Below are positions 2,416 through 34,163 of a stretch of DNA of 34,163 nucleotides, one piece after another. Each line of letters opens with the position of its first letter. Position 1 is the first letter of the stretch. The position numbers and the translations under genes are program-made. The notes below the pieces were generated by a model that saw nothing but the letters and a program-made list of their open reading frames with translations, was not told the DNA's origin and did no database searches. This DNA comes from a virus: positions 1 to 34,163 of IMG/VR virus record IMGVR_UViG_3300010397_000073; one strand, written 5' to 3'.

Positions 2416-3192
2416 TCAGGCGGCGGCAGCGTCCCGCTTGGCCTTGATCTCGGCATTGATGGTATCGGCCTGCGCGACCAGCGTTGCATGGCTCGGGTTG
2501 CCCTTCGGCCGCGATCCGGTGGCTTCCTGAATCCAGTTCTTGATATCGTCGGCGCCCATAGCGAAGAACGGTGAGGCGTTCGGGTCTTCCGGCGCGGCAA
2601 TCGGCTCGTCTGCGGCTTCGTCGGCAACGGCCGCGCCCGACAAACGCGCCTCAAGCTGCTTCACCCGCGCTTCAAGCGCGGCGTTGAGCGCTGCGATTTG
2701 GACCGCGCCTGCGTTGTCCGTGGCGTTGTCCAGGTAGGTCTGCGCCTGGACCTTCAGTTCGCGTCCCTGCATGCCGAGCATTTTCAGGTTTGCGCCGTCG
2801 ACCGCCGCGAGCGCTTCCGCGGTGTGGATATTGAGCGCCTTGAGTTCGAGCCGCTTGGACGCGGTCAGGAACGGAAGTTCCGACGTCGGCGTGCCGGTGA
2901 GCGTCTGATGGTCGCCCATCTTGAACGCCCGGTATTGGTCGGCGTACTGGATGGCATAGGTGATTTGGTTGATGTTGCCGCCGTTGAGATCGCGTTCGGT
3001 ACGGAACACCTCGTGAGCCGGGGCGTGAATGATCTTCTCGCGGTTGCCGGCGAAGCGGACTTCGCACATCTCCATGTCCTGGAAGATCGGCCGACCTGCC
3101 TTCTTGGTCGCGGCGGCGTCCTCCACGGGGAGGATGAAAAACCGCGGAATGGTCATGGCCTCGTTCGCGGCGGTCTGTCGATTGGATGACAT
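2416..3192 (-). CDS. Virion-module protein of unknown function with helix-hairpin-helix-like segment
   Basis: 258 aa. An N-terminal beta-rich part (FFILPVEDAAATKKAGRP; VRFAGNREKIIHAPAHEVF) is followed at about residues 118-145 by a helical stretch resembling helix-hairpin-helix repeats (LKALNIHTAEALAAVDG). Then comes a coiled coil of about 30 residues ending in VKQLEARL, and an Ala/Glu-rich tail. I do not recognise a function. It is the first gene after an intergenic promoter-like element (TTGACA at 3260-3255). Its SD lies in a 16-bp sequence repeated before the scaffold gene, which suggests shared translational control. It could be a minor head protein or head-assembly factor. Confidence 0.7.
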   Translation of the reverse strand: MSSNRQTAANEAMTIPRFFILPVEDAAATKKAGRPIFQDMEMCEVRFAGNREKIIHAPAHEVFRTERDLNGGNINQITYAIQYADQYRAFKMGDHQTLTGTPTSELPFLTASKRLELKALNIHTAEALAAVDGANLKMLGMQGRELKVQAQTYLDNATDNAGAVQIAALNAALEARVKQLEARLSGAAVADEAADEPIAAPEDPNASPFFAMGADDIKNWIQEATGSRPKGNPSHATLVAQADTINAEIKAKRDAAAA

Positions 3193-3232: not shown

Positions 3233-3260
3233 AACAGAGACGTTATAAACGAATTGTCAA
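3233..3260 (-). promoter_or_regulatory. Dispersed TTGACA element, minus strand, before the 258-aa gene
   Basis: TTGACA (3260-3255) followed by ATTCGTTTATAAC; the first 19 bases (GTTGACAATTCGTTTATAA) are identical to the copy at 22259. The hexamer 16 bases on is TCTGTT, a poor -10. It sits in the 78-base spacer behind the GT/methyltransferase gene and points at the 258-aa gene. Confidence 0.6.
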
Positions 3261-3270
3261 CGGTCGGACG

Positions 3271-5265
3271 CTAGGCAGACGGCATCTTGGCGAACCAACA
3301 GAAGTTTTCGCCGAGTTCGAGCGTGAGGCCGCGAGCGGCGATAAACTCGTCAACGGCGCGCGTGACGCCGAATTTGGGAAAGGCGGTATTTTCATAGTCG
3401 TGGCCGGAGATGTAGCCGCCCGGCTTGATCTTGGGCGCCCACGCCGCAATGTCGGCCGCGCACCCATCATAGGAATGATCGGCATCGATGAAGACGAACC
3501 CCAAATGACCATCCGGAAAGGTTCGCGCCGCGTCGTCCGATCGCATGCGAAGCACCTTCGCGCGCACCCCGGCGAAGCCAACCCGCACCTTGGCCAGGCG
3601 CATGAATTCTTCTTGGCTGGCGTCGTTGAGGGTCGCGTGCCAGTCTCCCGAGTCGCCCGCGTAGGCGTCGCCATGACCTTCCCAGCTATCGACCATGGTC
3701 AGATACAAGTCGGGATCGGCGCGCAACAGCGCAGCGGACATTTGACCCTGAAACACGCCTACTTCGACGCCCCAAGATCCCGCCGGCACCCGCGCGAGGA
3801 CTTCCGCCGCGCGCTGTTGCGCCGGGGATAGCGTGCCGAGCAGATCAAGGCCGATATCCGGCAGCAAGCCCGAACCGTGCACGGTGATGACTGCGCCGTC
3901 GGCCATATAGTTGGGCGCCAATTCGGCAAATTCCTGCGCCTGTCCAATCATCCAAGGCGCGCAATAATAGGTCTTGGTACCTTGGCTGGAGGTGTAGAGC
4001 GCTTCGGAGACACGCTCGCCGTCATTGAGCGGCTGCGGATAGGCGTGATGCGCGGGACCGCGGTAACAGCTATCGAAGCCGTACAGGTGAATGAAGCGAT
4101 ATCCGGCGAGGAAGGCGAGCGCGAGCGCGTTCATGCCAACGGTTGTTCCGCCGCCGACCAGATACGCGGCGCGGTGCGGCTCATTTGCCAGAAGGTCGGC
4201 CATGCCGGGCGAATTGACGTGGAATAGGGTTGTTGGCCGGCTTTCCACCGCACCAAACACAGCTTGATTGCATTGCGACGCGACCAGATACCCCGCCGCT
4301 TCGGTTAGAAACCCCGCCGTCTCGGGCCGCGCATCAAGCAATACTTGCGCATCATAGCGTATCCCGGTGCCCTCAAGTGCCTTATGGGCGTTATTCAGTA
4401 CCCATACCTCTTGCCCGATGCTTTGGCGCCACTGGATCTCCTCGATCTTGTCGACCAGGGACGGGCCGCCGCCGAGAATGGACACATGCCGGTCATGCTC
4501 ATCGGCCGGGGCGAACCACGGCAAGTCCAACGCGCACGCCTTCCGGACGTTTTCCAGGAGCTTTTCCGTCGCGGTGTTGCAGACGGCGGTCAGTTCGGCG
4601 CGCGAGATGCCGCCTTGGCACCAGACGCGCGGCACCCATCCGGTGAGTACTTCATGGGGACGGGGCTTACCGTGGAACACGACCACGGACGCCTTGTCGG
4701 GCAGCGCGCCGCCGCTGACCTTGTAGGAAACGAACATATCGGGAAGAACGTCTTGGAGGCGCACGGTCCAAGCCGGCAAATGGCGCTGCTCGATCCACGC
4801 TTGATCGCCGCCGCGATCGGTCTGCGGGTATCCGGCCGCCACAAACGACGACCAGATGCCGGTTTGCTCGCCCGCGCGCCACGACATGACCGACGACTGC
4901 ATGCCGTCGGCACCGCGGTGAAAATCGCGCAGAATGGCGAACGCGCCGTCATAAGCCGCGAGTCGGTCAATTGGGCCGGTGATGAGCGTGTCCAGGTCAA
5001 GATAAACGATGCGGTCACCGGTCGGGAACAGGTCGCGCTTGAACAGATAGAGCTTGTTCCACCAACCGGTGAGGTTGTTGGGTAGCTCGCGCTGCTCAAT
5101 GCCATCAGTATAGATACCATCCTGAAGCAGAAAATCCGTGAACACGACGAACCGGCCCGTCGTGCCTTCCTCAAGGTTGCGCCGGACCATGTCGAATAGG
5201 TTGTTGACGTACTCGACGCCGCGTCCCTGGTAATTGCCCCAATTGACCGTGACGAAATTAATCAT
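3271..5265 (-). CDS. Three-domain glycosyltransferase / DUF115-like / SAM methyltransferase fusion
   Basis: 664 aa with three domains in order. Residues 1 to about 225 form a GT-A-type glycosyltransferase: VYLDLDTL gives a DxD at 90-92, and GGDQAWI (152-158) and VVFHGKPRPHE (195-205) match GT8-like enzymes. Residues about 258-470 resemble the DUF115/MptE-like fold: SILGGGPSL (262-270), GGGTTVGMNALAL (371-383) and HLYGFDSC. Residues about 475-664 form a class I methyltransferase: EVGVFQGQM (501-509), FIDADHSYDG (592-601) and GHDYEN. The gene lies between two virion genes and has its own spacer with a strong hairpin upstream. Glycan modification of virion, host surface or DNA are all possible; the sequence does not decide. 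No frameshift was seen. Confidence 0.85.
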   Translation of the reverse strand: MINFVTVNWGNYQGRGVEYVNNLFDMVRRNLEEGTTGRFVVFTDFLLQDGIYTDGIEQRELPNNLTGWWNKLYLFKRDLFPTGDRIVYLDLDTLITGPIDRLAAYDGAFAILRDFHRGADGMQSSVMSWRAGEQTGIWSSFVAAGYPQTDRGGDQAWIEQRHLPAWTVRLQDVLPDMFVSYKVSGGALPDKASVVVFHGKPRPHEVLTGWVPRVWCQGGISRAELTAVCNTATEKLLENVRKACALDLPWFAPADEHDRHVSILGGGPSLVDKIEEIQWRQSIGQEVWVLNNAHKALEGTGIRYDAQVLLDARPETAGFLTEAAGYLVASQCNQAVFGAVESRPTTLFHVNSPGMADLLANEPHRAAYLVGGGTTVGMNALALAFLAGYRFIHLYGFDSCYRGPAHHAYPQPLNDGERVSEALYTSSQGTKTYYCAPWMIGQAQEFAELAPNYMADGAVITVHGSGLLPDIGLDLLGTLSPAQQRAAEVLARVPAGSWGVEVGVFQGQMSAALLRADPDLYLTMVDSWEGHGDAYAGDSGDWHATLNDASQEEFMRLAKVRVGFAGVRAKVLRMRSDDAARTFPDGHLGFVFIDADHSYDGCAADIAAWAPKIKPGGYISGHDYENTAFPKFGVTRAVDEFIAARGLTLELGENFCWFAKMPSA

Positions 5266-5320: not shown

Positions 5321-5337
5321 TGAACAATCCGTTTAAA
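5321..5337 (+). repeat. Element copy TGAACAATCCGTTTAAA
   Basis: The 18-base sequence GTGAACAATCCGTTTAAA (5320-5337) recurs exactly at 17546-17563. It resembles TTGACAATTCG but points against the genes around it, so it is more likely a protein-binding site than a promoter. Confidence 0.55.
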
Positions 5338-8575: not shown

Positions 8576-8671
8576 ATGGGCGGTTCGCATCTTCACACGA
8601 ACGAGGAGACGCGCCATGAGATCGGCCGGGTGATGAAAGCCCGGCCACCTCATCGCAAAGGAGTAAAATGA
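8576..8671 (+). other. Possible leader peptide before cassette gene 1
   Basis: An ATG at 8576 opens a 31-codon frame whose TGA overlaps the cassette start (ATGA). An alternative tiny frame of five codons starts at 8615 with a perfect SD (GAGGAG) and ends inside the hairpin. Either could act as a leader peptide; no further support. Confidence 0.3.
8616..8653 (+). other. Long stem-loop upstream of the cassette SD
   Basis: Arms ATGAG/CTCAT and GGCCGGG/CCCGGCC with a small internal bulge and a nine-base loop. It ends five bases before AAAGGAG, so it could affect ribosome access to the cassette. Confidence 0.6.
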
Positions 8672-9018
8672 ACGACACATCGCCAAGCATGCGTTTGCGC
8701 TTGTCACGGAACTTCGCCACGGCTGCGAATCGCTTGATGTCGAATCGGAAGTCCGAATACACTCGCGGTTTTGATGATGGTGTTGATGCCGCCCGCGAGT
8801 CATTCGACCACGACATTTACCACAGTTCGGCCGGCGAAGGTCTAAATGACCCTTTCGAAGCGAACGCTACCGAATTGAACCAAATTTTGTACGGCGATGA
8901 GCGCTGTCACGTCGCCTGCAAGCCTACCCTGCGCGAATGGCTCAAGGTGCGGCGGGACCGCGTTCGTGACGCTTGGCTCGTTCTGACCGGTCAATCTCAC
9001 CTGGACGATTCGTTTTGA
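8668..9018 (+). CDS. Plus-strand cassette gene 1, unknown function
   Basis: 116 aa with an excellent SD (AAGGAG, four bases before ATG). Highly charged and probably cytoplasmic. It has a RGFDDGVDAARESFDHD segment of the kind seen in small phage proteins and an Arg-rich helix (EWLKVRRDRVRDAW). No family recognised. It opens a four-gene plus-strand cassette inside the minus-strand virion module and is preceded by a long stem-loop (8616-8653) that ends just before the SD. Confidence 0.8.
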   Translation: MNDTSPSMRLRLSRNFATAANRLMSNRKSEYTRGFDDGVDAARESFDHDIYHSSAGEGLNDPFEANATELNQILYGDERCHVACKPTLREWLKVRRDRVRDAWLVLTGQSHLDDSF

Positions 9019-9278
9019 GCACGTTCCCCAAGATCGAAATCCGCCGCAACTCAGATGACGTCACGCGTTCCTATGTCGACGAATACCCGTGGCAAGGCGT
9101 TTTCATCTGGCAGGACGGTAACTATTCGTGCGATTGCAACCGATATCTGTTCTTTGAACGGGCGGACGGCAAAACGCCCGAATGGGACGACGGAGAGTGC
9201 GGAGACGGCGGCTATTCGGTCCGGATCACCGCACCCGACGGCAAATTGCTCTACTCGGACGGAGAGTGGACCGCATGA
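9015..9278 (+). CDS. Plus-strand cassette gene 2, unknown function
   Basis: 87 aa if translation starts at the TTG at 9015, which overlaps the preceding TGA (TTGA). An ATG at 8973 in the same frame would give 101 aa but overlap the upstream gene by 46 bases. Acidic and aromatic: WQGVFIWQDGNYSCDCNRY, then FFERADGKTPEWDDGECGDGG. Four Cys are present but not in a clear zinc pattern. Function unknown. Tight coupling to both neighbours supports it being a real gene. Confidence 0.65.
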   Translation: MSTFPKIEIRRNSDDVTRSYVDEYPWQGVFIWQDGNYSCDCNRYLFFERADGKTPEWDDGECGDGGYSVRITAPDGKLLYSDGEWTA

Positions 9279-9469
9279 GCAGCATGCCCGCCACCGAATA
9301 TCGCGCCATCCTCCGCGCGCTCAGGCTGTCCCAGCACCGCGCCGCAAAGTGGCTTGGCGTGTCGGCGCGCACCGGGCAGAACTATGCGACCAAAGGGCCG
9401 CCCGAGCCCGTGGCGCGATTCATTAGGGCGTGGGTGCGGCTGGGGCTTAGCGTGGGGGATTTGACGTGA
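9275..9469 (+). CDS. Small helix-turn-helix protein (XRE/YdaS-like)
   Basis: 64 aa, ATG overlapping the previous TGA (ATGA). The body is one HTH: ALRLSQHRAAKWLGVSARTG (about residues 14-33) followed by QNYATKGPPEPVARFIRAW. This is the layout of small Cro/XRE-type regulators where helix 3 begins with VSARTGQNY. It is the only obvious regulator in the minus-strand half and might control the operator repeats upstream at 8484-8562. An alternative start ATG at 9284 would remove three residues. Confidence 0.75.
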   Translation: MSSMPATEYRAILRALRLSQHRAAKWLGVSARTGQNYATKGPPEPVARFIRAWVRLGLSVGDLT

Positions 9470-17429: not shown

Positions 17430-17563
17430 GGGAGCGCTCCAAATTCACCCGCCCGCCGCGATCGAGCCTCGCACGCTGAATGGCTGATTTGGGGTGCGGT
17501 CGATCCCGCGACGGACGGGGCGACCCGCAGAATATCCGGAGCGGGGTGAACAATCCGTTTAAA
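17430..17563 (+). promoter_or_regulatory. Intergenic spacer with opposed element copy
   Basis: No gene is visible. TGAACAATCCGTTTAAA at 17547-17563 is the second exact copy of the 5321 element. It faces against transcription and overlaps the stop of the Arg/Ala-rich gene. Confidence 0.5.
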
Positions 17564-18071
17564 TGTGAAGTGTGCGCTTCCGACGCTTCAGAGCGGAGCG
17601 GGCGGCGTTGTGCGCCCATCGGCGTCGCGATACCCGGTCTTCTCGTTCCAAGCGCTCCGCGCGCTGGTCGGACGTCTCCATGGCCTCCCGCAACAGGCGT
17701 TTCGCCCGGCGCGCTGCGTCCAGGATCTCTTGGGTATGACGCTTGGCCGCGCGCGCGGCCGCAACCGCAGCGGTGCGACCCATCTCCGCTTCAATGCGCG
17801 CGGCGCGCTCCTGGTCCGTCTCGTTTGCCAGGGCCGCCCACTTTTCCGCGGCATGCTGCAGCGATCGGCGCTTGTTCCCTTTCGCTCGCGCAGCCAACGC
17901 CGCGAGTCGTTGCGCCTGTCGCTCGGCGTGGGTCAGACGCGGCTTCTCTTCTCGCGGTGCCGTGGGCGTCTTGGGGCGCGGAGGCGGCGCATCCCGCAAC
18001 GCTTCCTTGCGCGCGGCCAAGCGCCGGTCGAGCCGATCCCGAGCGCGCTGCAATCTCACATAAGGCAACAT
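17559..18071 (-). CDS. Arg/Ala-rich coiled-coil protein, first gene of the minus operon
   Basis: 170 aa from the ATG at 18071 (GGAG nine bases upstream); a GTG at 18113 is less likely. Almost entirely helical and very basic: RLQRARDRLDRRLAARKEAL, AERQAQRLAALAARAKGNKR, then EAMETSDQRAERLEREDRV. Such composition suggests a nucleic-acid-binding or scaffolding helix bundle, but no family is recognised. It is the promoter-proximal gene after the minus-facing TTGACA element at 18139. A copy of the dispersed element on the opposite strand overlaps its stop codon (17547-17563). Confidence 0.6.
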   Translation of the reverse strand: MLPYVRLQRARDRLDRRLAARKEALRDAPPPRPKTPTAPREEKPRLTHAERQAQRLAALAARAKGNKRRSLQHAAEKWAALANETDQERAARIEAEMGRTAAVAAARAAKRHTQEILDAARRAKRLLREAMETSDQRAERLEREDRVSRRRWAHNAARSALKRRKRTLHI

Positions 18072-18111
18072 GATCCTATCTCCGCGCACGATGTGGAATT
18101 TTCCAGGGGTC

Positions 18112-18150
18112 ACAAGCCACGTTTAGCGCGAATTGTCAACGGACCAGTTT
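18112..18150 (-). promoter_or_regulatory. Leftward promoter candidate for the virion operon
   Basis: Minus-strand AAACTGGTCCGTTGACAA (18150-18133) followed by TTCGCGC. The -35 is TTGACA (18139-18134); the hexamer 16 bases on (GCTTGT) is weak. The 18-base upstream part is identical to that of the rightward promoter at 18417-18434, in opposite orientation. Confidence 0.65.
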
Positions 18151-18170
18151 CGGCACAGATTCTTGGTCCA

Positions 18171-18243
18171 CTCTTTTTCCCTTTATCTTCAATTACTTAT
18201 CCCTCTTCGGAAAAAGGGATCAAATATAGAGAGGGATAAAGAG
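18171..18243. other. Nested inverted repeats in the control region
   Basis: TTATCCCTCT (18197-18206) pairs perfectly with AGAGGGATAA (18230-18239). TTTTTCC (18174-18180) and GGAAAAA (18209-18215) form a second, competing stem, and CTCTTT pairs with AAAGAG. Alternative folding suggests a regulatory RNA or protein-binding palindromes. Confidence 0.5.
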
Positions 18244-18416
18244 TTTGATCAGAGAAAATAAATCGCCGAGACCGTACCGGGGCGGCCCTGGTGAGTGTGT
18301 TGTGGGGCGCTATATGAAAACGGCCCCCTTTTCTTGGTGCATTGGTCCAACGTTAGCTAAATCGTTGATTTTAAATGGAACAAGTGTGGCCCACGTTTCT
18401 TGTGCCAGTGTGCCAA

Positions 18417-18455
18417 AAACTGGTCCGTTGACAACCCACCGTACCATGGTAGGTT
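18417..18455 (+). promoter_or_regulatory. Rightward promoter for the early region
   Basis: AAACTGGTCCG, TTGACA (18428-18433), 16-base spacer, TAGGTT (18450-18455). The spacer ends in a palindrome TACCATGGTA. Located 36 bases before the first early gene. Confidence 0.65.
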
Positions 18456-18491
18456 GCACCGTGGCAATAACGCAACAGACCGGTGACTCCA

Positions 18492-18629
18492 ATGCATCGG
18501 AACTTGCTCCTATTCGGCCTTTTAGTGTGCCTGGTCGGCGCGTTATTCTTCATGCCGAAGTCGCCAAGCGAGATCGTGTGCCAACCGGGATCGGTCGAGC
18601 AGCTATTTTTCACGGATTGTGCGCGGTGA
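18492..18629 (+). CDS. Small membrane-anchored protein, first early gene
   Basis: 45 aa. MHRNLLLFGLLVCLVGALFF is a signal-anchor-like start, followed by MPKSPSEIVCQPGSVEQLFF and a short tail with a second Cys. The outer part would be about 25 residues with two Cys that could pair. The SD is weak (GGTGA). A promoter with TTGACA and TAGGTT 16 bases apart lies 36 bases upstream. It would be the first gene made from the rightward early promoter. No family recognised. Confidence 0.55.
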   Translation: MHRNLLLFGLLVCLVGALFFMPKSPSEIVCQPGSVEQLFFTDCAR

Positions 18630-18633
18630 GGCC

Positions 18634-18671
18634 AACTTATTTGTTGACACTCCGTTTTTAGGGTGTATGGT
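18634..18671 (+). promoter_or_regulatory. Early promoter B1
   Basis: AACTTA, four bases, TTGACA (18644-18649), CTCCG, 16-base spacer, TATGGT (18666-18671). Precedes the 51-aa gene. Shares about 33 bases with B2 and B3. Confidence 0.7.
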
Positions 18672-19130: not shown

Positions 19131-19168
19131 AACTTATCTGTTGACACTCCGGTTTTAGAGTGTATGGT
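19131..19168 (+). promoter_or_regulatory. Early promoter B2
   Basis: AACTTA, four bases, TTGACA (19141-19146), CTCCG, 16-base spacer, TATGGT (19163-19168). The best match to B1. Precedes the 64-aa gene. Confidence 0.7.
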
Positions 19169-20023: not shown

Positions 20024-20061
20024 AACTTAACTGTTGACACTCCGTTTTTAGCGTGCCAATC
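20024..20061 (+). promoter_or_regulatory. Early promoter-like element B3
   Basis: AACTTA, TTGACA (20034-20039), CTCCGTTTTTAGCGTG, then CCAATC in place of TATGGT. The upstream part is conserved but the -10 is not, so this copy may be an operator or a weak promoter. Precedes the 54-aa gene. Confidence 0.55.
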
Positions 20062-21987: not shown

Positions 21988-22262
21988 GCGCGCCCGACAG
22001 CAACGTGTTGGCCTTCCCACCCGCCCGATCGGCGCGTCTCCTCTCGCATGTCACCCTCCATACCCTGGACGGGCGCGTGCTCGCCTCCGCCAGCTTTCTG
22101 CCGGGCGACCCCGGCGCGGCGTGGGAATGGGTCGTCGAGAATGCGGTGCGCGTCTTCGGTTGCGCGGAGTCGGAAGTAGGGACGGCGGACGGAGATTTGG
22201 TCACGGTCGGCGGTATTCCGGCCTATATGGTTGAAATCGTTCGACCTGCGAAATGGTGTTGA
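21984..22262 (+). CDS. 92-aa early protein of unknown function
   Basis: GTGA-coupled. SARLLSHVTLHTLDGRVLAS, then FLPGDPGAAWEWVVENAVRV and a beta strand. The stop codon TGA (22260-22262) lies inside the TTGACA of the next promoter, so the gene ends exactly where the new transcript is set. Function unknown. Confidence 0.6.
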   Translation: MSAPDSNVLAFPPARSARLLSHVTLHTLDGRVLASASFLPGDPGAAWEWVVENAVRVFGCAESEVGTADGDLVTVGGIPAYMVEIVRPAKWC

Positions 22263-22286
22263 CAATTCGTTTATAATGGGTACGTT
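22259..22286 (+). promoter_or_regulatory. Early promoter A1
   Basis: TTGACA (22259-22264), ATTCGTTTATAATGGG, TACGTT (22281-22286), then CGCATATC. The TGA inside TTGACA is the stop of the preceding gene. Shares GGTACGTTCGCA with element A3. Confidence 0.65.
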
Positions 22287-24113: not shown

Positions 24114-24359
24114 ATGGCTCGTCACAAGTGCGCGGATGTTGCCTGGAGCATTGATCAGACGCGACCGGGTATCGTCTCTAACGTAGACGCGCAACTCGCC
24201 GTCCTGATGGATATCCGCGACGAATTGCAGACCCTTCGGCGGCTGGCACAGTGCTATCGGCTACCGCGCGCCCTGGACGCGTGTATTGAGTTGGGTGCGG
24301 AAGCGCGCCGGAAGAAACGGGCAGCCGCGAAGCGCAAGGCGGCTAAAATTAAACGTTGA
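24114..24359 (+). CDS. 81-aa basic early protein
   Basis: ATG directly after the HD gene's TAA; SD GGAGG lies twelve bases before. Middle: VLMDIRDELQTLRRLAQCYR. C-terminus KKRAAAKRKAAKIKR is strongly basic. The stop TGA (24357-24359) falls within the TTGACA of the next element. Function unknown; may bind nucleic acid. Confidence 0.6.
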   Translation: MARHKCADVAWSIDQTRPGIVSNVDAQLAVLMDIRDELQTLRRLAQCYRLPRALDACIELGAEARRKKRAAAKRKAAKIKR

Positions 24360-24383
24360 CAATTCGGACCTATCGTGGAAAGT
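24356..24383 (+). promoter_or_regulatory. Early promoter-like element A2
   Basis: TTGACA (24356-24361), ATTCG, 16 bases, GAAAGT. Good -35, poor -10. TGA again serves as the stop of the upstream gene. Confidence 0.5.
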
Positions 24384-26355: not shown

Positions 26356-26537
26356 TGCGGGAATGCAGCGCGCGGAAGACCAGGGAAGGCGGAATGCGTT
26401 GCGTCCTGTGCCGCTCGGCGTGGGATGCGGACGATACCGCGCCGCCGTGCGCGCCGTGGATACCGAGCCCGCCGACACAGCCCAAGCGCCCCGAAAAAGT
26501 GCAGTTTGTTTCGGCGCTCGCACCGGATATCCGTTGA
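26355..26537 (+). CDS. Cys-rich small protein downstream of the SprT gene
   Basis: 60 aa, TGATG-coupled to the SprT-like gene; an ATG at 26394 is an alternative, with AAGG four bases before it. MRCVLCRSAWDADD gives C-x2-C, and CAPW adds a Cys, so a possible zinc ribbon. Pro-rich tail. Its TGA (26535-26537) lies in the TTGACA of element A3. It may be a split-off ribbon for the peptidase. Confidence 0.55.
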   Translation: MRECSARKTREGGMRCVLCRSAWDADDTAPPCAPWIPSPPTQPKRPEKVQFVSALAPDIR

Positions 26538-26561
26538 CAATTCGCAACTATACGGTACGTT
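26534..26561 (+). promoter_or_regulatory. Early promoter A3
   Basis: TTGACA (26534-26539), ATTCGCAACTATACGG, TACGTT (26556-26561), then CGCACATC. TGA stop of the upstream gene is inside the -35. Very like A1 over both hexamers. Confidence 0.65.
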
Positions 26562-27565: not shown

Positions 27566-27828
27566 CCGGAAAACATCTCAAGTGCATTGGTGGTCCGTGG
27601 GACGGACGGTCGGCGATGCTCGAACCCGGCTATAGGCATTTGACTGTTCGTGAACACGTCGGCATGTCCGCGTTGCAAACGGTACCAAATCCAGTAACTG
27701 GACCAATGTACACCGAAATGCGCTACGTTATCGGTCGGGTTCATGCAGATGGGGAGACTATCGAATTTCTCCATCCTTCGGACTGGTCGGCGGAGAGGAC
27801 GCTACGACACGCGCTCGGTGCCGCGTGA
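27562..27828 (+). CDS. 88-aa early protein of unknown function
   Basis: GTGA-coupled. MTGKHLKCIGGPWDGRSAML (a G-G-P-W-D-G start common in small phage proteins), then MRYVIGRVHADGETIEFLHP. Beta-rich small protein. Function unknown. Confidence 0.6.
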   Translation: MTGKHLKCIGGPWDGRSAMLEPGYRHLTVREHVGMSALQTVPNPVTGPMYTEMRYVIGRVHADGETIEFLHPSDWSAERTLRHALGAA

Positions 27829-27971
27829 CCCTTCAGGAAGCAGCGCTCGCAGTCGGTGCCACCCAACTCGGCGAAAAGCCGCATTTCATTTTCGACCTGG
27901 AAAAGCTGGCGGCGTTCCTTGCCTTGGTCGCTAAACCCGCGCCCCCGCCGCTTCCATATTCCCTTCCGTGA
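27825..27971 (+). CDS. 48-aa protein before the helicase
   Basis: GTGA-coupled on both sides. MTLQEAALAVGATQLGEKPH, then FIFDLEKLAAFLALVAKP and a Pro-rich tail. Could be a helicase partner peptide; function unknown. Confidence 0.5.
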   Translation: MTLQEAALAVGATQLGEKPHFIFDLEKLAAFLALVAKPAPPPLPYSLP

Positions 27972-29635
27972 TAGTCCTCCGCCCGAACCAGATCGCCGCG
28001 GCCGATGCGGTCGAAGACGCATTCCGCGCCGGCATCAACCGGCCACTGGTGGACTCCTGCGTCGGGTCGGGGAAATCAATCGGTATGGCGGAGGTATCGC
28101 GGCGCGCGTGGGAACGCGGCGAACGCAGTATCATTGCCGCACATACCCGCGAGTTGGTCGAGCAGAACGCGGAAGCGTGCCGGCTGCTCGGCCTGGAAGT
28201 GGGGATCAATGCTGAAGCGTTGAAAGAACGCTGCTGGCGGGCACCCGTGATCTCCGCCAGCATCCAATCGATCTATAAGAACGCCGCGTCGTTTGGCGTC
28301 ATCGCCCTGTTGCAAGTTGACGAGTGTGATTTGATTCCCCACTCGGAAATGGGGATGTACCGCAGCCTGCGCCGCGGGCTCGGGATGCCGCGGCAAGCCG
28401 GCTGGTCCGGAACCGTTTTTCGTCTCAACGGTGGTTCGCTGGTCGAAGGTGAGGAAGCGCCGTTCGACAAGGTGGTTTACCGCTATTCCATCATTGACGG
28501 CATCCGCGACGAATTGCTTGTGCCGGCGTTCTCCGCGCCGGCCGACGATAAAATGGACGCGTCGAAGCTTCGAACGCGCGAGGGCGACTATACGGGCGAG
28601 TCGCAAGACATTCAGATGATTGCGGCGATGGATAATCACATCGCGCAAATGCTGCACCATGGGCGATCTCGAAAAGCCTGGTTGGTGTTCGAGGCGTCGA
28701 CCAAGGCCGCCAAGGCGATGGCGGAAAGAATGAACCAGTGGGGCATTCCCACCGGTCTTGTGCTCGGGACCACGCCTGCCGCCGAGCGCGCGGCGTCCAT
28801 TGCGGCGTACCGAGCGGGCCGGCTGCGCGCATTGGTCAACGTCAATGCGCTGACCGTCGGGTTCGACGTCCAAGAGACGGATATGGTTGTGATGCGGCGC
28901 CGAACGAAATCCTTGCGCCTCTATATCCAGATGATTGGGCGCGGGCTGCGAACGATCGGCGGACACATTCTGCGCAGCATTGCGGCAGGTAAAGCTGACC
29001 TTCTTGTGCTCGACTTCGCCGGCAATATCGACGCGCACGGCCCGCTTGACTTCATTCGCCCCAAGGAAACCTCGATAAGCCTGGTCTCCTGCGAGGAGTG
29101 CGGCAAGCGCAACCAACCCGCCGCCATGCGGTGCTGGAGTTGCGACGCGGTGATGACCAAGCTCTGTCCAAAATGTCTAGGTGGTCCGGAGAATATTGGT
29201 ATCCCCAAGGGAACGTTGATCTGCACCATCGTATTGGAAGACGGTACGACATGCGCGCACGACATGCGAGCGGGACCGCGCGAGGAGGGGAAGCCGACCA
29301 AGCTCCTGGACACGCCGAGCGGCGCCGCGCTGATCTCGTCCTATCGCCCCGGACCGGCGCGCGAGGGCGGGTGGATGCCCATTCGCAAGGTGTGGAGCAA
29401 AGAAGGTGTCATGAGCGCTTTGACCGAAGCGGGCGAGGCGCTGGAGATCCCCGCCGCGCTCTCTATGCTTGCCGCCGACGCGCGTTGGGTACGATCGGAT
29501 GGCGCGCTCCTGGTACCGAATGGTGCGAACCGAACGTCGGTGAGGATGTATGGACCGGGCGGCGGTATGCTCGTGGTGCCGATGCCCATGGTGCAACAGC
29601 AACAAAGCAAGTTAGATGTTGACAGTTCGCAATAA
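27968..29635 (+). CDS. SF2 DNA/RNA helicase with C-terminal zinc ribbon
   Basis: 555 aa, GTG start overlapping the previous TGA. Motif I: CVGSGKS (31-37). Motif II: DECD (118-121). Motif III-like: SGTVFR. Motif VI: QMIGRGLR (321-328). After the helicase core come Cys pairs (CEECGKRN, then CWSCD and LCPKCLGG), a zinc-ribbon insertion near 375-410, and a long C-terminal extension. Similar DEAD/DEAH proteins unwind replication or recombination intermediates in phages. The TTGACA of the next promoter overlaps its last codons. No nuclease or recombinase domain was seen. Confidence 0.9.
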   Translation: MIVLRPNQIAAADAVEDAFRAGINRPLVDSCVGSGKSIGMAEVSRRAWERGERSIIAAHTRELVEQNAEACRLLGLEVGINAEALKERCWRAPVISASIQSIYKNAASFGVIALLQVDECDLIPHSEMGMYRSLRRGLGMPRQAGWSGTVFRLNGGSLVEGEEAPFDKVVYRYSIIDGIRDELLVPAFSAPADDKMDASKLRTREGDYTGESQDIQMIAAMDNHIAQMLHHGRSRKAWLVFEASTKAAKAMAERMNQWGIPTGLVLGTTPAAERAASIAAYRAGRLRALVNVNALTVGFDVQETDMVVMRRRTKSLRLYIQMIGRGLRTIGGHILRSIAAGKADLLVLDFAGNIDAHGPLDFIRPKETSISLVSCEECGKRNQPAAMRCWSCDAVMTKLCPKCLGGPENIGIPKGTLICTIVLEDGTTCAHDMRAGPREEGKPTKLLDTPSGAALISSYRPGPAREGGWMPIRKVWSKEGVMSALTEAGEALEIPAALSMLAADARWVRSDGALLVPNGANRTSVRMYGPGGGMLVVPMPMVQQQQSKLDVDSSQ

Positions 29636-29646
29636 ACCGGTAAGGT
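29619..29646 (+). promoter_or_regulatory. Early promoter A4
   Basis: TTGACA (29619-29624), GTTCGCAATAAACCGG, TAAGGT (29641-29646). Overlaps the last codons of the helicase gene. Precedes the two-span membrane gene and the tandem HTH gene. Confidence 0.6.
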
Positions 29647-29670: not shown

Positions 29671-29847
29671 ATGAGCAACTCGAAAGATGACAATGACGGT
29701 TCCGGATGCCTGTTCATCGTCGGCGCTGTTATCGCGGGGCTTTCAGTCGGAGAGCTTTCCCAAGCGGTTTACGGATGGCTGGTCATCGGCGTATCGCTCA
29801 TGATTATCGGTGCCATTTCGGTGCGTGGGCGGCCCGTCCGCAAATGA
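29671..29847 (+). CDS. Small two-span membrane protein (58 aa)
   Basis: Start ATG at 29671 with GGGG six bases upstream; an ATG at 29659 is too close to its SD. Charged N-terminus (MSNSKDDNDGSG) then spans CLFIVGAVIAGLSVGELS and YGWLVIGVSLMIIGAISV with a basic end. Hairpin in the membrane, holin-like in topology, but no other evidence. Preceded by promoter element A4. Confidence 0.65.
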   Translation: MSNSKDDNDGSGCLFIVGAVIAGLSVGELSQAVYGWLVIGVSLMIIGAISVRGRPVRK

Positions 29848-30134
29848 CCGCTCCCGATCCCACCATCCTTTCCCGCTTTGATGCGGGTGAAACGCCCGTG
29901 CAGATCGCCAAGGCGACCGGTGTCAAGTCGGCTCGGGTATACGCAATCCTCCGCAAGCATCGTCCTGACCGCCCCCGTGCCGCACGGTCGCGCACCAGCA
30001 CCAAGCCGGAGCAAATGCTTGCGCTGCACGCGGAGGGGGTCGCGGTGGAGCGCATCGCTGAGATCCTGGAAGTGTCCAAGGCCTACGTATACGGTCAGAT
30101 TCAGAAAGCGAAGGACCAAGCCAATGCTTCCTAA
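29844..30134 (+). CDS. Tandem helix-turn-helix protein
   Basis: 96 aa, ATGA-coupled. Two matching HTH units: PVQIAKATGVKSARVYAI (about 18-35) and VERIAEILEVSKAYVYGQ (about 68-85), both of the resolvase/Hin-tail type, joined by a basic linker (RPDRPRAARSRTSTKP). An internal duplication. Its two equal DNA-binding units make it a candidate reader of the dispersed promoter elements, but that is not shown. Confidence 0.75.
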   Translation: MTAPDPTILSRFDAGETPVQIAKATGVKSARVYAILRKHRPDRPRAARSRTSTKPEQMLALHAEGVAVERIAEILEVSKAYVYGQIQKAKDQANAS

Positions 30135-32103: not shown

Positions 32104-34163
32104 TCAATACGGTAGCGGCGGACACACTCGCCGCGCTCCCGGTCCGATCGTGACGCGCGGGCGCCCTTCCGCCGTCTTCCCCACCAGATACCTTGTCGCT
32201 GTTTCCGGCCGCTCCGTCCCGCGTATCCATCCCCGCGTTCGCGTACCCAATAGGCGCGGTTGCACCTCGCGGAACCCGAGCCGCTTCAACACCCCCGCGC
32301 GCTCCTTGCGCTCCGCGCCCCTCCATCCGCATAGATCCGCCAACTCCACCAGATCGTCAGTTGCCACGAACGCGGCGGCCGTGTGGGGTGTCTCGGCGAA
32401 CCAGGCGCACAACCGCGCCTCCACGTCCGACACCGAACGGGCGGCCTCCTGGTGGGCTGCCGCTTCGGACCATATTTCCCGTGGGAGATCGAACCCCTCG
32501 CCCAATGCTTCCAGCGCCGCGGCCTCGCCGACGATTTGCCCCACGGTGCCATGAAAGCCGACCAGGTCGATTTCCTGGGTGATGTGGATCGGCAGGAACC
32601 GACGGTTTCCCGATGTGTCGGTCAGCGGGTTCTCGTCATTTGTCGTGCCGATAAAAATATTGCGCCGCGGCCTTTCCGAGACAGCACGGGCGTAGGCGGT
32701 CCGGCCGGCGTCGACCTGTCGCGATAACATCGCCTTGACGTGGGTCACGTTGGCGTTGCCGCGCGTACCCATTTCGCCGATCTCCGCCACCAGCTTGCCG
32801 GCAAGCGACAAGACCAACTCTTTCGAGGCGTCGCCAAGCATGACGTTGTCGGTGAAGTTCTGACCATTGCCGCGCAGGATCTCGGCGAGCGGCGTCACAC
32901 CACCATCGGACAAGATCGCGGCCAGGGTGCTTTTTCCGGTCCCCTGCGACCCGAAGAAAATCGGCATGAAGTCGAATTTGCAGCCGGGATGCCGCGCCCG
33001 CTTGACCATACCGCCGACGATCAGTTTTCCGACGGCCTGGTGGTAGGCGTCATCCGGGGTACTGCAGAACCGGGAAAGCCAGTCAGAAAGGCGGGCGACA
33101 CCATCCCAGCCTTTGGCCAATTGGGAAAGCGTCTCCAAAACGGGATCGATCGGGTTTGCGTGGGCGAGCGTGAGAAGCGATTCCCACAGGAAGTCCTTTG
33201 CCGGTCGGAAACGGGTCTTGGTGCGGTTGGCGCGGGTGCGCGGTTTGGCCACCACCGTATCGTCGACATAGGACCACGCTTTCCACGATAGGTCGCTGTC
33301 GGTGCCGCCGCCCTGGATCTCCATTCGCTCCAGCCACGCATTCCAGCGCAGTTCGAGAGAGAGCACCCCGAGCAGCACCACGACGTTGTCGCTGTTGTCA
33401 TTTTGCGGCTCGCCGTTCTTGTCGTATTCCCATTTGTCTTGGGTGACGGTGATGCGTTCGACCTTTTCGGACAGGTTCGCCGCCGCCAGCCGAATACGTT
33501 TGTCCTGGAGCGTGTGGCCGGCGGCGCGCACGCGGCGCGCGACAGCGTCGAACACGTCGGCGTGCAGCAGGTTGAGCACCGCAAGCGGATCGGTGACGCG
33601 GCTGGGACGCCATTTATTTGGCGCTTCGGTGAGCGCCACAATTCGCGCGATCGAGGCGCACATGGGCTCGTACAGACCGTGCCCGGACATTGCGGCGGGT
33701 AGGGTCGGCCACTCGGGCGAGGTGGGAGCGGGCGTATCGGCGGTGGCGGCGAGGAAGTCGGCGAGGATCGGCGCGGCGAGGCGAGCAAGCTCCTCCTGAC
33801 CGGCCATCATGGGCATTCCGTCGCCTGCCGCGCCGGGAGTCGGCATCCCACCGGACAAGGACGCGCCCGCCGCGGCGGCGAGTTGCGCGACTTCCGAGAA
33901 CATCGCGGCGGTGGAGCGCCGAATAGTCCCCTTCCACCCCGCGCGGTGGGCTCGGTCCATAAAACTGTTCAGCGTGACCGAGTCGGATGTAGGCTCGGTA
34001 GCGAACGACTCCCACTTCCTTTGCGCCTCATCGGGTGCCACGCTGTTGTCGTGGGTCAATTCCCACAATTCAAGACCCGAGTCACCGTATTCGATTCGCA
34101 GCGCCATGCCGGCGGCGCACCAATCCTCATAGGCTTCAAACTGCCCCTTCTCGTTCAACCATG
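32104..34163 (-). CDS. Primase-helicase, PriCT-2 plus VirE/SF3-type ATPase, 5' end off the window
   Basis: At least 686 aa; the frame stays open past 34158 and runs off the right edge, so the true start is missing. The visible N-terminal part (YEDWCAAGMALRI, then LELWELTHDNS and SFMDRAHRAGWKGT) is a PriCT-2 primase C-terminal module. The C-terminal half holds FFGSQGTGKST (Walker A), MLGDASKELVLSLAGKLVAE (Walker B region), and IFIGTTNDENPL, a VirE-type hexameric helicase (SF3-like). It probably unwinds and primes phage DNA. It is transcribed toward the early block, so regulation is separate. An N-terminal primase or bifunctional domain may lie outside the window. Confidence 0.85.
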   Translation of the reverse strand, partial: WLNEKGQFEAYEDWCAAGMALRIEYGDSGLELWELTHDNSVAPDEAQRKWESFATEPTSDSVTLNSFMDRAHRAGWKGTIRRSTAAMFSEVAQLAAAAGASLSGGMPTPGAAGDGMPMMAGQEELARLAAPILADFLAATADTPAPTSPEWPTLPAAMSGHGLYEPMCASIARIVALTEAPNKWRPSRVTDPLAVLNLLHADVFDAVARRVRAAGHTLQDKRIRLAAANLSEKVERITVTQDKWEYDKNGEPQNDNSDNVVVLLGVLSLELRWNAWLERMEIQGGGTDSDLSWKAWSYVDDTVVAKPRTRANRTKTRFRPAKDFLWESLLTLAHANPIDPVLETLSQLAKGWDGVARLSDWLSRFCSTPDDAYHQAVGKLIVGGMVKRARHPGCKFDFMPIFFGSQGTGKSTLAAILSDGGVTPLAEILRGNGQNFTDNVMLGDASKELVLSLAGKLVAEIGEMGTRGNANVTHVKAMLSRQVDAGRTAYARAVSERPRRNIFIGTTNDENPLTDTSGNRRFLPIHITQEIDLVGFHGTVGQIVGEAAALEALGEGFDLPREIWSEAAAHQEAARSVSDVEARLCAWFAETPHTAAAFVATDDLVELADLCGWRGAERKERAGVLKRLGFREVQPRLLGTRTRGWIRGTERPETATRYLVGKTAEGRPRVTIGPGARRVCPPLPY

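Follow-up and report, generated by a model that had tools for sequence, protein, structure and literature searches.

The stretch of DNA analysed here (the window) is a viral record of 34,163 bases. Its end falls inside a primase gene that runs to 886-916 codons in relatives, so the record is a fragment. To the left of position 18,072 the genes lie on the minus strand and include those for the large terminase, the portal and the major capsid protein, and to the right of 18,494 a plus-strand early arm begins that includes genes for a dNMP phosphatase, an exonuclease and a helicase. The 421-base gap that separates this virion operon from the early arm, which we call the hub (Table 1), lies exactly where the initial annotation had drawn a boundary between two halves of the genome. 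A search of GenBank phages returned no near-identical phage. The virion arm is akin to one phage lineage (the portal of Rhizobium phage RHph_I3_18 matches with 54% identity over 75%) and the early arm, judged from helicase and primase records, to a different one. That the joint is a real mosaic is supported by L033; among the contigs found, it alone matches the junction on either side. The 45-aa ORF that opens the early arm had no match in a family search. Within the minus-strand virion arm there is a small cassette of plus-strand genes (8668-9469), which includes a weak Xre-like helix-turn-helix (HTH) protein (9275-9469).

An 18-base sequence, AAACTGGTCCGTTGACAA, occurs in the hub in two exact copies that face outward with 266 nt between them, as the initial annotation had reported. 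The window holds no further copy at up to three mismatches, and shuffles give an expectation of 0.01. The two TTGGTCC motifs described between the copies are present at 18163 and 18342 (+), and the nested inverted repeats at 18170-18244. The 7-mer is not enriched genome-wide (6 copies, 3.86 expected); the shorter TGGTCC occurs 4 times in the 421 bp, with 0.32 expected, and 2 of these 4 copies lie inside the 18-mers. The symmetry extends beyond the 18-mer: the two flanking arms, one reverse-complemented, align with a score of 44 (at most 32 in shuffles, 0/2000). Downstream of the two -35 boxes no mirror match is seen (918/2000 shuffles). Because the arms align without the 18-mer and the downstream parts do not, the 18-mer is the best preserved stretch of a mirror repeat that is longer, though imperfect, and spans both promoter-upstream regions. 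The region also has a strong single-strand fold (z -4.8), which reflects the inverted repeat. A transcript hairpin across this region was ruled out, as divergent transcripts would begin outside it. A 15-mer scan of viral contigs gave 17 matches, none of them a relative with the same junction, and we took these as chance.

Both 18-mer copies end in a -35 box, TTGACA, and the first start codon of each arm follows 66-67 nt further downstream. The GGTCCG directly 5' of the box is identical in the two copies, and none of the other promoters of this phage has it. The initial description of mirror-image promoters is borne out by these -35 boxes at promoter distance, but the two copies are not equivalent, differing in both -10 and operator. 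The early-facing promoter reads TTGACA-N16-TAGGTT, with a -10 that fits the class TANGKT described below; compared with TATAAT, TAGGTT agrees at 3/6 positions and falls under the threshold of a consensus scan. The virion-facing copy has a perfect -35, and its best -10 candidate, GCTTGT, agrees with the consensus at 2/6 positions. On the minus strand TTGACA is followed by ATTCGCGCTAA, with the ATTCG operator, as behind this phage's other TTGACA boxes, whereas on the plus strand it is followed by ACCCACC, unlike that pattern. Since the early-facing copy has no operator, membership of the hub in the regulon is not uniform. Reading the hub as a two-way promoter is well supported on the early side and plausible on the virion side, where the -10 is poor enough that a transcript from that copy is a guess.

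Table 1. Features of the hub and of the promoter set in the window (positions from the first base of the window).
Feature	Position	Strand	Remarks
Operator-bearing -35 (ATTCG) in virion arm	3233..3260	-	poor -10; 68 nt before start of 2416-3192
First virion-operon gene (170 aa, basic)	17559..18072	-	start codon 67 nt downstream of -35
Virion-facing spacer	18112..18133	-	operator bases ATTCGCGCTAAACGTG (18133-18118); poor -10 GCTTGT (18117-18112)
Virion-facing 18-mer copy	18133..18150	-	shared upstream element AAACTGGTCCG and -35 TTGACA (18139-18134); exact match
Mirror repeat, left arm	18151..18223	-	upstream of virion-facing -35
AT-rich core with nested inverted repeats	18165..18255		kept in L033 (about 4560-4626) though flanking motifs differ
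Mirror repeat, right arm	18334..18406	+	upstream of early-facing -35
Early-facing 18-mer copy	18417..18434	+	shared upstream element and -35 TTGACA (18428-18433); exact match and class match
Early-facing spacer	18434..18455	+	ACCCACCGTACCATGG, without phage operator; class-typical -10 TAGGTT (18450-18455)
First early ORF (45 aa, N-terminal part hydrophobic)	18494..18629	+	start codon 66 nt downstream of -35
Early class promoter	18644..18671	+	operator variant CTCCG
Early class promoter	19141..19168	+	operator variant CTCCG
Operator-bearing -35	20034..20061	+	CTCCG; no good -10
Early class promoter	22259..22286	+	operator ATTCG
Operator-bearing -35	24356..24383	+	ATTCG; no good -10
Early class promoter	26534..26561	+	operator ATTCG
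Early class promoter	29619..29646	+	operator GTTCG; upstream of tandem-HTH gene
Tandem HTH protein (96 aa), candidate regulator	29844..30134	+	Pfam HTH_23/HTH_7
VapE/PriCT_2 primase	32104..34158	-	domain match

Of 42 records, 11 contain the class TTGACA-N16-TANGKT, with 26 matches in all; the reversed-pattern control gave 1 match, and the class is absent from the 29 records obtained by way of the terminase. Six matches fall in the window, all on the plus strand from 18,428 rightwards (0 in 100 shuffles). We compared 25 distinct class sites within and between phages. At positions 7-12, counted from the start of TTGACA, identity is 0.71 within and 0.39 between phages (p=0.0005), and at positions 13-17 it is 0.48 and 0.30 (p=0.002); for the -10 hexamer the values are 0.80 and 0.79. 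Flanks outside the spacer are near background, the sole weak signal lying at -30 to -21 (p=0.03). Such a pattern is what one would expect if the bases after the -35 were an operator recognised by a protein particular to each phage. The main caveat is common descent of the promoters within a genome, which could partly explain the within-phage sharing; duplication as its sole source is disfavoured, as the flanks are not alike. The 18-mer observation stands and exceeds chance, and the larger result is a phage-specific promoter-operator set that includes the pair. A search for CtrA boxes found none. A 17-mer, TGAACAATCCGTTTAAA, found at 5321-5337 and 17547-17563 (+) near minus-strand virion gene starts, is operator-like without TTGACA.

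Many asymmetric, phage-specific sites in one orientation, mostly intergenic, are seen most clearly in the related phage G009, and more weakly in the window (about 9 sites). G009 has 22 sites of its own 13-mer, TTGACATACAACG, and G010 has 22 of a different one, TTGACAATAAACC, each with few copies elsewhere (the control for G009 gave 0). All 22 sites in G009 are intergenic and co-directional with the next gene wherever one was called, and most lie about 50-67 nt ahead of its start with or without a -10, which is present at 16-17 nt in 14 of them. Virion-arm copies have a -10 in 2 of 11 cases and other copies in 27 of 42 (p=0.015), which fits virion promoters needing help from a phage protein, but this tally was made after seeing the pattern and is therefore only suggestive.

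The best candidate for a regulator of this promoter class is the 96-aa tandem-HTH protein, modelled with confidence as two domains (pLDDT 89). Its gene in the window comes after the operator-bearing promoter at 29619, with a short ORF between, and in G009 it lies directly behind such a promoter. Relatives of the protein occur in 12 early-arm phages (every one of the 11 records to which the helicase led, and 1 more) and in none of 29 terminase-type records, and L033, a 15.5-kb fragment, has no HTH match. Since the gene adjoins the helicase through which most of the records were found, this co-occurrence in one lineage is weak evidence. For the same protein, tblastn gave no phage match and comparison with solved structures no close fold match; searching for relatives by the HTH gene alone gave nothing useful. 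The Xre-like protein of the cassette is a weaker candidate. The earlier remark that no repressor gene sits beside the hub holds for the CI type: searches of the window, itself a fragment, for integrase families and for CI-type HTH_3 domains found none, while these two other HTH proteins are encoded there. Integrases are present in 5 related early-arm phage records.

From these sequence comparisons, we consider it probable (about two in three) that in this uncultivated tailed phage the hub is a divergent early/virion promoter region, part of a phage-specific operator-promoter regulon of L5-like type, and possibly a replication origin as well. Host RNA polymerase would fire the early-facing promoter at once, as we infer from its good -10 and lack of an operator. 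An early phage DNA-binding protein, for which the 96-aa protein is the best candidate, would then act via the operator at the remaining early promoters as well as at the virion-facing one, whose weak -10 would hold it off until helped. A second protein may bind at the shared GGTCC element and the AT-rich core, which may double as the origin.

Of the alternatives, the one that survives best makes the hub mainly a replication origin, with an AT-rich melting core and phage-specific iterons read by a VapE/primase-type replication protein, the promoters being incidental. It is a real possibility, though not one we favour, and it is compatible with the promoter hub rather than exclusive of it. In P4-type origins, iterons are bound by an alpha/VapE-like primase-helicase. 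The hub shares with these an AT-rich segment (51.5% AT, about 39% genome-wide), phage-specific repeats and a VapE/PriCT_2 primase encoded in the same record, and differs in its weak iterons: the window offers four TGGTCC, two of them within the 18-mers. GC skew is unreadable, because gene direction flips at the same point, and the hub has no adjoining initiator gene. A search through the terminase gathered 80 loci as wide relatives. A scan for the core pattern matched L033 alone. The AT-rich core of L033 can be aligned to the core in the window (score 48, 0/2000), and in both records it points the same way with respect to the virion arm, so that the core is both present and kept while the motifs around it have changed. 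The mirror arms of L033 (score 60, 0/2000) are built on GTTCTA, with 11 of the 13 copies in the hub and several 11 bp apart; its virion-side -35 is TTGACC and it has no 18-mer pair. In G009 two outward copies of the phage's own promoter flank an ATGCCCG repeat cluster, with 10 CGGGCAT copies in the hub and the strongest mirror signal (z about 12). Repeats are thus strong in L033 and G009 and weak in the window. A constant plan with varying letters suggests a protein-DNA pair that switches specificity, and either a regulator or a replication initiator would fit.

Most other divergent gaps tested in relatives have no mirror hub. In the terminase-type relative L031 (4253-5033), a mirror repeat around CTAAAAATTATTTGGATTAG lies in a divergent gap (z 4.8). 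Two early-arm phages have repeats in AT-rich divergent gaps without a clear mirror pair, AGTTAC in 6 copies (L107, 1376-1876) and ACTGAA in 7 (L114, 3814-4510).

The initial annotation had proposed that a single regulator, binding the shared ACTGGTCCGTTGACA, controls both operons. We find this unlikely as stated. The identical GGTCCG, confined to the two hub promoters, and the local clustering of TGGTCC do speak for a shared protein; however, the copies are unlike in their -10 and operator bases, few bases stay specific to the pair once TTGACA and parts of AAACT...CG, shared across the class, are set aside, and L033 has the hub but not the pair. With ATTCG in the virion-facing copy and not in the early-facing one, it is unlikely that one regulator reads both alike through the operator; what could be kept of the proposal is a second protein binding the upstream GGTCC alone. 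The initial annotation also saw a resemblance to a lysis/lysogeny or early/late switch. In early regions of the lambda pL/pR type, found in temperate phages, each of two arms is under a promoter that faces outward and has flanking sites in common with the other, and the hub would be alike in this. The hub differs in that a CI/Cro-type gene lies neither between nor beside its promoters, the window as a fragment having no HTH_3 match, and in that its left arm is the virion operon and not an immunity operon.

A further alternative takes the dispersed sites as stoperators in the strict L5 sense, at which a lysogenic repressor stops elongation, with the hub copies just two of them. As L5 itself was not in the collection searched, D29 served as the yardstick for cluster A, queried with CTTGACAKCCACC, which we take to be the L5-type 13-mer. 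D29 has 25 copies, co-directional and mostly intergenic, at varying distances to gene starts, and a -10 is present in 2 of the 25. Our sites look much the same in being asymmetric, phage-specific, co-oriented with transcription, mostly intergenic and present in about 20 copies with TTGACA included. These are the features described for cluster A, whose stoperators are asymmetric, TTGACA-containing, group-specific sites (L5 and D29 have about 20 such 13-mers, TTGACA plus a subtype-specific hexamer, co-oriented and mostly intergenic; PMC6550527; PMC9283540). The integrases of the 5 related early-arm phages would also fit. Against this, the -10 is present in 14 of 22 sites in G009 and in 2 of 25 in D29 (p=0.0001, with slightly different -10 rules), and most of the G009 sites lie 50-67 nt before the start codon, so that the design is cluster A-like but the sites here are mainly built and placed as promoters. 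Neither an integrase nor a repressor was found in the window. Strict stoperators are therefore improbable. The phages are also unrelated to cluster A in gene content as far as compared. The 96-aa candidate has two HTHs, where the known L5-type repressor uses two DNA-binding domains.

Least probable is that the segment inverts or recombines, or that a promoter was duplicated in inverted form by chance and without regulatory meaning. Recombination would be possible between the perfect 18-bp inverted repeats, which enclose 266 bp, and the arms resemble a diverged inverted duplication. Against this, the resolvase family PF00239 is absent from the window and from 12 related records (so that the invertible segment was rejected, and nothing speaks for a flip-switch sense of the "switch" first proposed), the core of L033 keeps its orientation relative to the virion arm, and relatives show further mirror hubs, which most of the other divergent gaps tested lack.

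Beyond cluster A, the promoter-operator regulon has a parallel in the T1-like phages (T1, Stevie, TLS), which have 16-21 asymmetric, mostly intergenic repeats in the direction of transcription, in TLS at a fairly fixed distance of about 76 nt ahead of start codons (PMC4319613; PMC11447400). Those repeats differ in sequence (ATAGCAC...TTGnTAAAA, 21-22 bp), and T1-like phages are lytic.

A fuller version of the promoter-operator regulon is more doubtful. In it, a partly integrase-bearing lineage would place a private operator in the -35/spacer region of about twenty promoters, read by the small tandem-HTH protein and with letters changing from phage to phage; the early-facing hub promoter would escape this control and the virion-facing one would depend on it. 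If true, this would be L5-like, specificity-switching control at initiation, outside the actinobacteriophages. The best-known phage-specific dispersed operators are those that define immunity groups among cluster A mycobacteriophages. An operator fused to working promoters, with variable letters next to a constant -35 and -10, would be a second case in which diverging immunity or timing specificities can be read from sequence, and would allow phages that share a regulator to be predicted from sequence only. The mirror hub would join early and virion control, and possibly replication, in one short DNA segment.

One further feature recurs at the protein level: PPLPY-like tails end several unrelated predicted proteins, in the window (27825-27971, +, and the primase), in L033 (4789-5256 and 5532-5780) and in L109.
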